64,000 bases of DNA from assembly GCA_021792135.1 (NCBI GenBank), contig JAJYVF010000020.1, positions 1 to 64,000 on the forward strand. Reading direction: 5' to 3'. This DNA is from Acidobacteriota bacterium (GTDB taxonomy: Bacteria; Acidobacteriota; Terriglobia; Terriglobales; Acidobacteriaceae). Below the pieces are notes generated by a model, which saw nothing but the letters and a program-made list of their open reading frames with translations, had not been told where the DNA came from and ran no database searches. The translations under genes and the position numbers were made by a program. Positions 32,721 to 36,197 of this stretch are shown here, one piece after another (position 1 is the first letter of the stretch; each line of letters opens with the position of its first letter).

Positions 32721-32996
32721 TCACTTCAGATAAGCCCGGACAAGATCGATGAGATCTTCAGCCAACTCGCTGGTGAGTGTTGAATCCCTATCAGGCGACA
32801 TCATATGCAGACGGATATGGTCCTCAAGCACCTCGGCCATCAGGCCGTTGATGCCGCCGCGCACATTGGCCAGCAGCATCAGGATGTCGGCGCAATGCCC
32901 CTTATCGGTGAGAGCCCGTTCAATGGCATCTACCTGGCCTTTGATCCTCCGGATGCGCGCAATGAGCTTCTGTTGTTCCCGCGAATCGATTGGCAT
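32721..32996 (-). CDS. FrmR/RcnR-type repressor (CsoR superfamily)
   Basis: All-helical DNA-binding regulator of 91 residues, exactly the FrmR/RcnR length when ATG 32996 is used; GAGGG lies about ten bases upstream. Conserved features: LIARIRRIKGQVDAIERAL, C35 in the position of the sensing cysteine, H60 in MAEVLEDHIR, and Pro at position 2. Pro2-Cys35-His60 matches formaldehyde-responsive FrmR rather than the nickel/cobalt sensor RcnR, which has His at position 3. It may answer to formaldehyde or to metals. It is divergent from a promoter containing a GC-tract palindrome and reading towards the Nramp-like gene. Confidence 0.8.
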   Translation of the reverse strand: MPIDSREQQKLIARIRRIKGQVDAIERALTDKGHCADILMLLANVRGGINGLMAEVLEDHIRLHMMSPDRDSTLTSELAEDLIDLVRAYLK

Positions 32997-33029
32997 GTTC
33001 GGATGTCCCTCTTTGGCGTTCATTTTCTC

Positions 33030-33060
33030 TTGACTATATCCCATGGGGGTATGGTATAAG
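33030..33060 (+). promoter_or_regulatory. Promoter with CsoR/FrmR-type operator
   Basis: TTGACT (33030-33035) and TATAAG (33055-33060) form a plus-strand promoter with a 19-base spacer. Between them lies ATATCCC-AT-GGGGGTAT (33036-33052), an A/T-flanked G/C tract typical of CsoR/RcnR/FrmR operators, with the palindromic core CCCATGGG. A minus-strand -10 (TATAGT) overlaps it, so the repressor would control both itself and the transporter side. Confidence 0.65.
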
Positions 33061-33627
33061 AGTAGGAGCGATGCTCCGGCAAGATGGGAGCACCCAACCA
33101 AGCTTATGAAAACCGAAACTGCGTTAGAACCTCCGAGTTGCAACGGCTTTCCCGCTCCGTCATCAGAGCGCCTGAGCTTTAGCTACCGGAGTGCTTGCCT
33201 GCGCTGTGAGGTTGAAGCCCGCGATTAGATTCAACCGATCGCCTGCTCACTTCTCACAGTGTATGACTCTGTTTGAGCGAGTGAGCAGAACCCGCCAGGA
33301 AACATGAATCACCGGCGGCTCCTACCCACCCCCTCCTAATTCCAAAGTTCTGGCCAACTCGCGCCTCGGGTGCGGACTTGTGTGTCGGTCCGCCAGCCTT
33401 GAGGATGCCCTGTGCCGGAAGGAGGATGTCATGACCGAAATCATTCTCACTTTTCCTGTTCGCAGGGTAGCTTCCCTGTCATGCGTCTGGATCAGGACCG
33501 GGAACCCGGCTCAGCCTCTGGTTTGCAAATGGGCATCGTGCCCGAAAGTCAGCGCCGATCCCATCGCAACCGAGCCGGACAGTTGCCGGCTTTGCGCGTG
33601 ATTCCAACACAGGCAGGAGGAGCGAAC
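33061..33627 (+). promoter_or_regulatory. Long structured 5' leader of the Nramp-like operon
   Basis: About 570 bases precede the transporter. Strong hairpins: GGTTGAA/TTCAACC (33210-33216 with 33230-33236); CTGCTCACT/AGTGAGCAG (33243-33251 with 33280-33288) with a further CTCACAG/CTGTTTGAG helix inside; CCGCC/GGCGG (33292-33296 with 33314-33318); and GCGGAC/GTCCGC (33372-33377 with 33388-33393). I cannot match it to the ykoK (M-box), yybP-ykoY or NiCo riboswitch consensus by eye. A small ORF lies near its 3' end. Confidence 0.5.
33431..33601 (+). CDS. Small cysteine-rich protein (56 residues) in the leader
   Basis: ATG 33431 is preceded by AAGGAGG with seven bases spacing, better than most starts in the window. 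The product has five cysteines (18, 32, 37, 52, 55), ends in CRLCA and contains the segment CVWIRTGNPAQPLVCKW. I have the impression that similar small proteins with a TGNP..PLVC core occur elsewhere, but cannot name a family. It could bind metal, or act as a regulatory leader peptide, because it ends 26 bases before the transporter start. Confidence 0.5.
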   Translation: MTEIILTFPVRRVASLSCVWIRTGNPAQPLVCKWASCPKVSADPIATEPDSCRLCA

Positions 33628-34941
33628 GTGAATCCACGCAACGCAAGTGTTCTGGAACTGGACCCGAAGGCGAAGCCTGGCATTGTTGTGCGCAGGCGCT
33701 GGCAACAGAGCCTGCTTACATTTCTCATGGTCTTCGGCCCCGGACTGATCGTCATGGAGGCGGACAACGACGCCGGAGCCGTATCCACTTACGTACAGGC
33801 GGGCGGCCAGTACGGCTTGCACCTGCTCTGGATTCTGCTTCTGCTGCTCCCCATCACCTATTTCGTGCAGGAGATGGTAGCTCGGCTGGGCATTGCTACC
33901 GGCAAGGGTCACGCCGCCATGATCTACGAGCGCTTCGGAAAGTGGTGGGGGCACTTTTCCTTATTCGACCTGCTGGTGGTGAACTTCCTGACGCTGATCA
34001 CCGAATTCGCCGCCATTTCCCTGGCCCTGAGCGCGATGGGCGTTTCTCCATGGATTGCCGTACCGGTTTCGGCCGCGGGGCTCATCCTGTTGGTGATTAC
34101 TGGCAGCTATCTGCGCTGGGAGCGGACGGTGATTGTACTCTGTCTGCTCGATCTCACGTGGTTCGCTTTAACTGCTTTTGTGCATCCCACGTGGACGGCG
34201 GTGGCTTACAACACGTTTGTGCCCAATCTGCCGCCGGGCCGGATCACCGGCGACCTGATCTTCCTGATCATCGCCATCGTGGGAACGACCATCGCTCCGT
34301 GGCAGCTCTTCTTCCAGCAGAGTTGTGTGGCTGAAAAACGCCTGCGCTTCGCAGACTTGAAGTGGGCGCGGCTGGACACCCTGATCGGCGCGACTTTCAC
34401 CGTCCTCGTTGCCGGAGCCATGATGATCGTCGGCAACTACGGCTATCAGCACGGGATCCAGTTCCAGGACCCGGCCCAGATGGCGAAAGCCCTGGCTCCA
34501 CTGGCCGGTCATTTTGTGCGCAACGGCATATTGCTTCTGATGGTCAACGCCGCAGTGCTCGGGACGACGGCGATCTCGCTTGCCAGCGCATGGGCTTATG
34601 GCGAAGTGCGCGGCTGGCCCCATTCGCTGCACAAGAAGATATGGGAAGCTCCGGGGTTCTATGCGGTGTATATCGCCTGTGTCGGCCTTGCGGCTGGTAT
34701 CGTCCTCATCCCGCACATGCCGCTGCAACTGGTCATTGTCAGCGTGCAGGTCTTTGCCGGCCTGATTCTGCCCTCGGCCATCATCTTCCTGCAGCTCTTG
34801 CTGAACGACCATGCCCTCCTGGGCGATGAGTGGGTGAATCGCCCCTGGAACAACTGGATCAACTGGACGATTATCTTCGTCCTCTTTGCCCTGTCGCTGC
34901 TGCTGGCGGCTCAGGTCATGCTACCGAAACTCTTTAACTGA
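33628..34941 (+). CDS. Nramp-related divalent metal transporter with atypical metal-site motifs
   Basis: 437 residues, about eleven helices in the LeuT/Nramp fold. GTG 33628 was chosen because AGGAGGAG ends five bases upstream. The helix-1 motif, DPGN in classical MntH/Nramp, is EADNDAG here (in GPGLIVMEADNDAGAVSTY). The helix-6 motif, MPH in classical members, is APWQ (GTTIAPWQLFFQQS). Thus the metal-coordinating methionine that favours Mn/Fe is missing. Nramp-related proteins lacking it include magnesium transporters, and the following mgtC-like gene fits magnesium (inference). Preceded by a repressor-controlled promoter and a structured leader. Confidence 0.8.
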   Translation: MNPRNASVLELDPKAKPGIVVRRRWQQSLLTFLMVFGPGLIVMEADNDAGAVSTYVQAGGQYGLHLLWILLLLLPITYFVQEMVARLGIATGKGHAAMIYERFGKWWGHFSLFDLLVVNFLTLITEFAAISLALSAMGVSPWIAVPVSAAGLILLVITGSYLRWERTVIVLCLLDLTWFALTAFVHPTWTAVAYNTFVPNLPPGRITGDLIFLIIAIVGTTIAPWQLFFQQSCVAEKRLRFADLKWARLDTLIGATFTVLVAGAMMIVGNYGYQHGIQFQDPAQMAKALAPLAGHFVRNGILLLMVNAAVLGTTAISLASAWAYGEVRGWPHSLHKKIWEAPGFYAVYIACVGLAAGIVLIPHMPLQLVIVSVQVFAGLILPSAIIFLQLLLNDHALLGDEWVNRPWNNWINWTIIFVLFALSLLLAAQVMLPKLFN

Positions 34942-34957
34942 AAATGCGAGGTGAACC

Positions 34958-35182
34958 ATGGCTACGATGCAGAACACATATCCATCTGAATACTTCCGGG
35001 TAGTTCATCCACTTGAGGACGCTCCGGAGCAAAAGTGCGAAACCCAGGGCCTTGGTCCTATCGCTATGACGCCAGGTGTCCGCATTTCCCTGGTTGTTCT
35101 GCGCGGGTATCTGATCCTCATGACCCTGATGCTGGTTTGGCACGTTCTGGACATGGCAGGCGTTCTTCGCAAATTGAAATAG
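34958..35182 (+). CDS. Small one-helix membrane protein next to the Nramp-like transporter
   Basis: 74 residues with GAGGTG just before the ATG. A soluble N-terminal 40 residues (YPSEYFRVVHPLEDAPEQKC) precedes one membrane helix (ISLVVLRGYLILMTLMLVWHVL) and a short basic tail. It begins 16 bases after the transporter stop and is clearly in the same operon, so it may be an accessory or regulatory subunit. No named family recognised. Confidence 0.65.
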   Translation: MATMQNTYPSEYFRVVHPLEDAPEQKCETQGLGPIAMTPGVRISLVVLRGYLILMTLMLVWHVLDMAGVLRKLK

Positions 35183-35231
35183 TGCAACCTTACGCTGTCA
35201 GGAAGCGGGAATTTCTCACAGGAGATTGGAA

Positions 35232-36197
35232 GTGAGATCGGGTCTGTTCATGCGGATTGAGGAGGCGTTCGAGTGGGCGCAATTGTTCTTCACTTCGCTA
35301 TTCAGTTTCTTTACGGCCCTGCTCCCGGGCGCTGCTGCGGGACTGGAACATCAGTGGCGACAACGCATGCCAGGTACGCGGACGAATGCCTTGGTCGCGG
35401 CTGGAGCTTCGGCATTTGTGATGGCGGGAATGCTTCTCGGGAACGATCCCGGCGGCCGCATGGCTTCTTACCTTGTGTCCGGCGTCGGCTTTCTCGGTGC
35501 AGGGGTAATCAAGGATGGCTCCAACGTGCGCGGCCTCAACACCGCCGCCACCATCTGGTGCTCAGCCGCAATGGGCATCGTTTGCAGATTCAATCACCTT
35601 CTTTTGGCTGTCGTTGTCGGCCTCGCCGTGCTGTTTGCGAACACTGCACTCCGCCCCCTGGCTTATCGGCTTCATCCGGTTCTGCCGGCCGAGGAGCCCG
35701 GTGAAGTGATCTGCGAGATTGCGCTCACTCGCAGAAATTCGGATGAAGCGAAAAAAAACGGACCGCAGGCCATCGGCAAGTCGCGCGGCGGATGGACCAC
35801 CAAAATTCATCTGGTTGCCGCGGATTCTCGAACGGCCATAAGCCTGGCGCTGTCGCCCGGCAATGAGAACAATGCGCCCTGCGGCCGACAGCTGCTGCTC
35901 GATCCGGGACCGATGCCGGAGAACCTCCCCCTGGTCATGGATAAAGCCTGCGAAGGCGACGAAACCCGGCAACTGGTGCTGGATAGGGGCATGATCCCCG
36001 TGGTCCCGCCCAAGTCCAACCGCATCCATCCGTGGGAGTATGACCGCGAGCTGTACAAGAAGCGCAACCAAATCGAACGACTCTTCCGCAGACTCAAAGG
36101 CTTCCGCCGCATCTTCTCCCGCTTTGAGAAACTGGACGTCGTCTTCCTCGGCTTCATTTATTTCGCTCTCATCATCGAGACTCTGCGGTTAGTGTGA
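35232..36197 (+). CDS. Chimera: MgtC/SapB-type membrane domain fused to an IS5-type transposase C-terminus
   Basis: 321 codons from GTG 35232 (AGGAG seven bases upstream). Residues about 5-150 are an MgtC/SapB membrane domain: LPGAAAGLEHQWRQRMPGTRTNALVAAGAS and SGVGFLGAGVIKDGSNVRGLNTAATIW, where MgtC proteins help growth in low magnesium. Near codon 172 (about 35745) it switches in frame to an IS5/IS427-type transposase (KKNGPQAIGKSRGGWTTKIH through RNQIERLFRRLKGFRRIFSRF to the normal transposase end). The cytosolic C-terminal domain of MgtC is therefore lost. The membrane part might still work; otherwise this is a disrupted gene. Confidence 0.8.
   Translation: MRSGLFMRIEEAFEWAQLFFTSLFSFFTALLPGAAAGLEHQWRQRMPGTRTNALVAAGASAFVMAGMLLGNDPGGRMASYLVSGVGFLGAGVIKDGSNVRGLNTAATIWCSAAMGIVCRFNHLLLAVVVGLAVLFANTALRPLAYRLHPVLPAEEPGEVICEIALTRRNSDEAKKNGPQAIGKSRGGWTTKIHLVAADSRTAISLALSPGNENNAPCGRQLLLDPGPMPENLPLVMDKACEGDETRQLVLDRGMIPVVPPKSNRIHPWEYDRELYKKRNQIERLFRRLKGFRRIFSRFEKLDVVFLGFIYFALIIETLRLV

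Follow-up and report, generated by a model that had tools for sequence, protein, structure and literature searches.

Ribosome destabilisation at the EPDP motif of a leader peptide, MgtL, has been described upstream of the enterobacterial mgtA gene (PMC11282234), and for the Salmonella mgtCBRU operon an acidic upstream open reading frame (uORF), mgtQ, is described together with mutually exclusive stem-loops and sequestration of a Shine-Dalgarno (SD) sequence (PMC8092293). The Mycobacterium tuberculosis pe20 leader is similarly presented as an M-box riboswitch (ykoK, RF00380) followed by a uORF (PMC12810186). In the literature that we found, low-Mg2+ sensing by leader peptides whose acidic-proline codons destabilise the ribosome is described for enterobacteria; within the open-licence literature searched, we found no description of an acidic-Pro-Pro leader peptide before Nramp genes.

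Here, we analyze the 567-nt leader (33061-33627) of an Nramp-family transporter gene within a 64,000-nt stretch of an Acidobacteriaceae genome, hereafter the window. We think it rather likely that this leader is an MgtL-like leader-peptide attenuator, predicted to act under a CsoR/RcnR-type repressor and probably responsive to Mg2+. As with MgtL, a short uORF with an acidic-proline start (uORF1) precedes a Mg2+-type transporter gene, with alternative RNA structures downstream (PMC11282234). The window leader differs from MgtL in its peptide, phylum and transporter, carries the motif (D/E)-PP(S), and adds both an anti-SD sequence and a second small ORF (smORF2); the likeness to MgtL is one of motif only. 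The leader shares with mgtQ the combination of an acidic uORF, mutually exclusive stem-loops and SD sequestration, whereas mgtQ, unlike uORF1, is an 8-aa ORF located between genes and its Pro codon is reported to be dispensable (PMC8092293). Likewise, the M. tuberculosis M-box leader is Mg2+-related and features a conserved uORF, an anti-SD and a second SD, SD2 (PMC12810186), but the M-box is absent from the window and from 39 of 40 close loci.

Upstream of the leader, the window encodes a divergent CsoR/RcnR/FrmR-family metal-type repressor (32721-33023, minus strand; Pfam PF02583, Trns_repr_metal, E = 3.8e-19), as an earlier note on this DNA had anticipated in positing a repressor and operator at this place. 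The top NCBIfam match of the repressor is FrmR, with a score under the family cut-off, and its gene adjoins the leader in many relatives. An operator-like G/C palindrome, ATATCCCATGGGGGTAT (33036-33052), was recognized by eye within the element 33030-33060 (plus strand) and aligns with similar sequence in relatives. It is flanked, again by eye, by a likely -35 box (TTGACT, 33030-33035) and a likely -10 box (GTATAA, 33054-33059), and this arrangement makes a transcript start near 33066 likely. The earlier note held that a promoter just before 33628 would argue against its leader; when 32900-33700 was scanned by consensus, no sigma-70 promoter emerged there, that site included, and the TTGACT/GTATAA pair around the palindrome was not reported either.

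Downstream, and all on the plus strand, the transporter gene (33628-34941, alternative start 33598; Pfam Nramp, E = 2.8e-70) is followed by a 74-aa ORF (34958-35182) that occupies the same place in relatives (by tblastn, it comes after the transporter at all 7 loci with NRMT that were compared) and that matched no Pfam or NCBIfam family. The next frame (35226-36197) encodes an MgtC domain (Pfam MgtC, E = 9.9e-30) and then, uninterrupted, the C-terminal region of a transposase of the IS5 family (DDE_Tnp_1, E = 2e-11; NCBIfam IS5); the window's MgtC gene therefore looks insertion-broken. The window's genome also harbors a second transporter copy (L052, G000:C23:70336-71169), N-terminally truncated (residues 160-437, 92% identical) and followed by the 74-aa ORF; leader, repressor and smORF2 were not found beside it.

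Judged from its sequence, the window transporter is closest, among solved Nramp proteins, to the magnesium type (NRMT, Nramp-related magnesium transporters). Its best PDB match is the Mg2+ transporter EleNRMT (7qia, E = 8.2e-64; next best, 9.5e-18), with which it shares TTIAPW in helix 6. For the binding site of NRMTs, the motif is given as DxxG (helix 1) together with TxxA/T (helix 6) (PMC8806188); TTIA fits the latter, and helix 1 reads DAGA where EleNRMT has DAGG, a difference that counts against the attenuator reading. DAGA is also found in orthologues behind M-box riboswitches. An A. capsulatum NrmT without an M-box is described as looking more like a Mn2+ transporter (PMC4072509), which also weighs against the attenuator reading, and Mn2+ may be the substrate of the window transporter.

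Related loci were drawn from a family search, in which 168 of 200 genomes had a transporter match at E <= 1e-60 (mostly paralogues of 33-41% identity), and a class search, in which 23 of 399 genomes matched at E <= 1e-150; a further 80 loci were kept from a single scan of genome contigs. After six loci were left out beforehand as a partial gene, paralogues or a truncated copy (L034 to L038, L052), 118 loci were reduced to 89 by collapsing duplicates and to 85 by dropping those with less than 450 nt upstream (L061, L085, L107, L110). The 40 loci at which the transporter is at least 74% identical are here called close loci, and they form one clade in a protein tree built with a quick search (SH-aLRT 98); the remainder comprises 33 loci at 66-74% and 12 below 66%. 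Alignment of these leaders, along with searches using the repressor and small-ORF proteins, revealed two ORF-like blocks within the leader.

The first block is uORF1 (33106-33228, plus strand), a conserved 40-aa frame with Glu8-Pro9-Pro10 encoded at 33127-33135. A uORF, defined as an ATG-initiated frame of 8-60 aa that carries [DE]PP early on, lies before 40/40 close loci, 5/33 at 66-74% and 3/12 below 66%, compared with 1, 1 and 0 on the reverse strands and 1.55, 0.6 and 0.15 in shuffles of the same three groups. The form [DE]x(0-1)PPS, picked post hoc after uORFs in the lower groups were read by eye, occurs before 55 of the 85 loci (34/40 close, 21/45 others), as opposed to 0/85 reverse strands, 0.63 of 85 in shuffles and 1 of 694 same-locus control windows. 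Related small uORFs thus accompany this transporter in several further bacterial groups. None of four paralogues, one with only 148 nt upstream, features a PP uORF. Within the frame, pN/pS is 0.42, relative to 1.20 and 1.09 in the other two frames (112 pairs); uORF1 is conserved as coding sequence, and its translation by ribosomes is predicted on that basis. Met1, Glu8, Pro9 and Pro10 are invariant across 25 chosen peptides, and the first Pro codon is CCT in 37 of 40 close loci, such that codon choice may matter. Beyond E-P-P, the peptide varies in length and sequence, with a C-terminal part that is similar in many relatives. Counting against an attenuator, a well-spaced SD is missing from most uORF1 copies, with no clear one in the window. 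A profile of the uORF peptide, run over whole genomes, returned extra matches that were mostly short and chance-like and was used only in genomes G057 and G003.

The second block is smORF2, a 56-aa ORF (33431-33601, plus strand) with tblastn relatives and its own SD, SD2 (AGGAGG, 33420-33425, plus strand). It matches no Pfam or NCBIfam family, and its relatives share a core resembling W-x-x-T-G-N-P-x-x-P-L with a frequent LCA end. A similar ORF occurs in 34/40 close loci. The smORF2 stop in the window shares bases with a GTG (33598) that is in phase with the Nramp gene, and in many close loci it overlaps an in-frame transporter start, which makes translational coupling between smORF2 and the transporter likely. 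That smORF2 also lies behind the leader at loci without NRMT indicates that it is part of the leader module rather than of the transporter. Paired with SD2 in a local fold of the window's sequence is an anti-SD, CCUCCU (33332-33337, plus strand), situated in a C-rich stretch that is also rut-like. CCTCC lies 60-140 nt past the uORF stop in 34/40 close loci (10.3 expected), and GGAGG with a start codon usually follows 80-90 nt beyond it. The anti-SD region is C-rich beyond shuffles in 32/36 loci, and SD2 is more closed than when the leader is shuffled (0.059 as against 0.164, with the lower value in 31/36).

The leader is also strongly structured. As a whole, it folds at -217.3 kcal/mol (z -3.0; 0/100 shuffles as low), and local folds stand out at 33240-33291 (-23.0, z -3.4), 33196-33265 (-29.0, z -4.5) and 33326-33445 (-43.3, z -2.1); a small 5' hairpin at 33066-33096 is ordinary (z -1.2, 22/200 shuffles as low). 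An inverted-repeat search recovered exact 9-base arms at 33243-33251 and 33280-33288, 28 nt apart, and together with the local z-scores of -3.4 and -4.5 confirms the strong hairpins, including 9-base arms with an inner helix, that the earlier note had picked out by eye. Its impression that the leader matches no familiar metal riboswitch also holds: no Rfam family reached gathering score anywhere in the 64,000-nt window, a permissive scan of 32990-33700 returned only two eukaryotic-RNA matches far under threshold, and the M-box covariance model (RF00380) gave 0 matches in the window and none at E <= 10 in the leader. A known riboswitch before the Nramp gene is ruled out by these Rfam scans. The proposal of a new cis-regulatory RNA stands insofar as the region appears cis-regulatory and structured, and it overlooked the two small ORFs, the exclusive helices and the anti-SD. 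As a pure RNA, the leader has real structure, but conserved coding at 33431-33601 and the conserved uORF at 33106-33228 mean that about half of its 567 nt is small-ORF sequence.

Two of these helices compete. Past the uORF1 stop, an imperfect hairpin, 2:3, is found in 32 of 40 close loci, the other eight having been set aside by eye (L082, L042, L080, L081, L086, L079, L026, L072), an exclusion that counts against the attenuator reading; in the window, it corresponds to the 9-base arms with inner helix (33243-33288, plus strand). Its 5' strand, segment 2 (33238-33261, plus strand), pairs alternatively with segment 1 at the end of uORF1 (33201-33225, plus strand) to form helix 1:2, within the local fold of z -4.5, and the helices are thus mutually exclusive; both are strong in the window's own sequence. 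Two alignments, A3 and A5, hold 24 and 22 of the 32 remaining loci. Because two registers are mixed in the combined hairpin alignment, the covariation counts cover only group B, the larger subgroup, whose members also supplied the structure; the window itself belongs to another subgroup, of 7 loci. Across the 22 group-B loci, helix 1:2 is paired in 90.1% of cells, with both-side changes in 8/18 pairs and a covariation score of 0.236 (0.148 in shuffles), and helix 2:3 in 91.9% of cells, with both-side changes in 4/16 pairs and a score of 0.122 (0.068 in shuffles; similar on 24 loci). The compensatory changes in related leaders that the earlier note had named as its check are therefore present; as relatedness survives the shuffling and members of the group supplied the structures, the counts lend support short of proof. 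By itself, RNAalifold recovers just a 5-bp core in group B, and in the subgroup of 7 that includes the window it recovers a hairpin of 13 pairs. Letters of the hairpin loop are conserved.

Duplex energies also indicate co-adaptation of the arms. Own-locus pairing is stronger than cross-locus pairing for helix 1:2 (-21.9 vs -17.8) and helix 2:3 (-17.4 vs -15.8), with 0/5000 permutations in each case; within subgroups, 0/5000 is kept solely by 1:2 in group B, and 2:3 gives 0.08-0.10. Pairing between segments 3 and 4, which would complete the switch, was rejected as a supported element: complementarity exceeds that of shuffles, but co-adaptation is absent (-9.9 vs -9.6, 0.17), and it is retained here as conjecture. 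Besides this absence of 3:4 co-adaptation, two results run against an attenuator. Synonymous recoding of helix 1:2 gave a mean z of only -0.67, with 4/32 loci below -1.65 and 2/32 at about +0.96, and in-silico ribosome masks left SD2 closed at equilibrium, its mean unpaired probability being 0.066 when free, 0.073 with a ribosome stalled at EPP and 0.059 with the uORF covered (p 0.06).

An M-box precedes 15 of the 80 orthologue loci scanned, 14/40 in the lower group and 1/40 in the close group; five of the 85 loci (L045, L124 to L127) lay outside this Rfam scan, and at L131 the M-box is about 2 kb upstream. A PP uORF was recognized, in some cases by eye, at 12/15 M-box loci, where it typically starts 65-130 nt past the aptamer. 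M-boxes before other genes of the same genomes (L136, L151, L152) are accompanied by a PP uORF in none of the three. A sampled M-box search of the phylum, with 13 candidates scored per genome, returned 0/199, a figure that has no bearing on absence. At one locus, a leader combining an M-box with an EPPS uORF has an Acido-Lenti-1 RNA (RF01687; L072:370-416) about 2.1 kb upstream of it.

The leader itself is not confined to the transporter. At E <= 0.01, a covariance model of it matched 46 of 300 genomes of the family. This count is a lower bound, as no more than 10 candidates were scored in each genome and the genome of the window itself was missed. Among 30 fetched leader loci, 18 continue into NRMT and one more ends inside NRMT. 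Other genes behind the leader encode OprB porins, a large outer-membrane beta-barrel protein, MgtC, an ABC permease-ATPase pair and an outer-membrane efflux protein, although several of these targets were named by translated-sequence resemblance only and that of L218 has no family. At L217 (G124), the genes behind the leader code for a transporter pair, an ABC permease and an ATPase that carries an AAA_assoc_C domain. In L183 (G057) and L184 (G003), an OprB-type porin gene directly follows repressor, operator and EPP uORF and NRMT is missing from its usual place, a pattern suggestive of transporter loss from the operon.

The attenuator that we favor draws on the uORF motif counts, the in-frame pN/pS, the covarying exclusive helices, the anti-SD excess and the closed SD2. 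A promoter around 33030-33060, under the hold of the CsoR-type repressor, would give rise to a leader of about 560 nt on which ribosomes translate uORF1. At the early Glu-Pro-Pro codons, they would stall or fall off, most likely at low Mg2+, as for MgtL. A ribosome stopped there would leave the end of uORF1 bare and allow helix 1:2 to form; one that reaches the uORF1 stop would block helix 1:2, with hairpin 2:3 forming instead. The choice of helix would then determine whether the C-rich anti-SD hides the SD2 of smORF2, and hence the transporter, or invites Rho, an output route that we consider an equal candidate beside SD2 masking. Low Mg2+ would thereby turn the transporter on. Magnesium as the signal is suggested by EleNRMT as nearest relative, M-boxes before orthologues, the leader before MgtC and porins, and the MgtL and mgtQ precedents.

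The same attenuator could instead respond to proline supply, EF-P activity or some other stress on Pro-Pro codons. The invariant Pro9-Pro10 and near-uniform CCT codon would suit such a signal, and Pro-Pro stalling and EF-P are discussed in the literature (PMC8092293), but the acidic residue directly before PP is likewise kept, the targets are NRMT, MgtC and porins, and orthologues stand under M-box riboswitches; we regard this signal as unlikely. It is quite unlikely, too, that the small ORFs are working small proteins that partner the transporter, with RNA structure secondary. Both remain with the leader before porin, outer-membrane, MgtC and ABC genes that lack NRMT, and uORF1 varies past E-P-P, even though smORF2 is clearly protein-conserved and the C-terminal part of uORF1 recurs in many relatives.

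Two further explanations dispense with the leader peptide, and we give little credence to either. The metal aptamer of a new ligand-binding riboswitch, as the earlier note suggested, would account for strong conserved hairpins, covariation and conserved loop letters; the conserved helices, though, are a pair of plain hairpins that alternate and are linked to a coding frame. No ligand-binding core, junction or other aptamer-like core was found in the leader, nor any Rfam relative, and we consider such a riboswitch very improbable. Sole regulation by the CsoR-type repressor, with incidental leader structure, is just as improbable: repressor and operator-like palindrome are indeed kept, but so are the uORF, the covariation and an anti-SD far above controls.

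More broadly than the leader-peptide attenuator of this one locus, we tentatively propose, at a little under an even chance, a multi-phylum ribosome-based Mg2+ sensor, in which NRMT genes of several bacterial phyla come with short acidic-Pro-Pro(-Ser) leader peptides, in many cases arranged in tandem with an M-box aptamer. In Acidobacteriaceae, the M-box would have gone and been replaced by a CsoR-type operator, the 1:2/2:3 attenuator and a second small ORF, and the same module would stand before porin, MgtC, outer-membrane and ABC-transport genes. Our analysis defines an unannotated pair of small ORFs, uORF1 and smORF2, at a locus that, as we read it, splits two inputs, a metal repressor and the ribosome, at one promoter. 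If true, a conserved acidic-PP leader peptide that goes with a single family of transporters in different phyla, on its own or behind an M-box, would represent a general mechanism with many natural variants.
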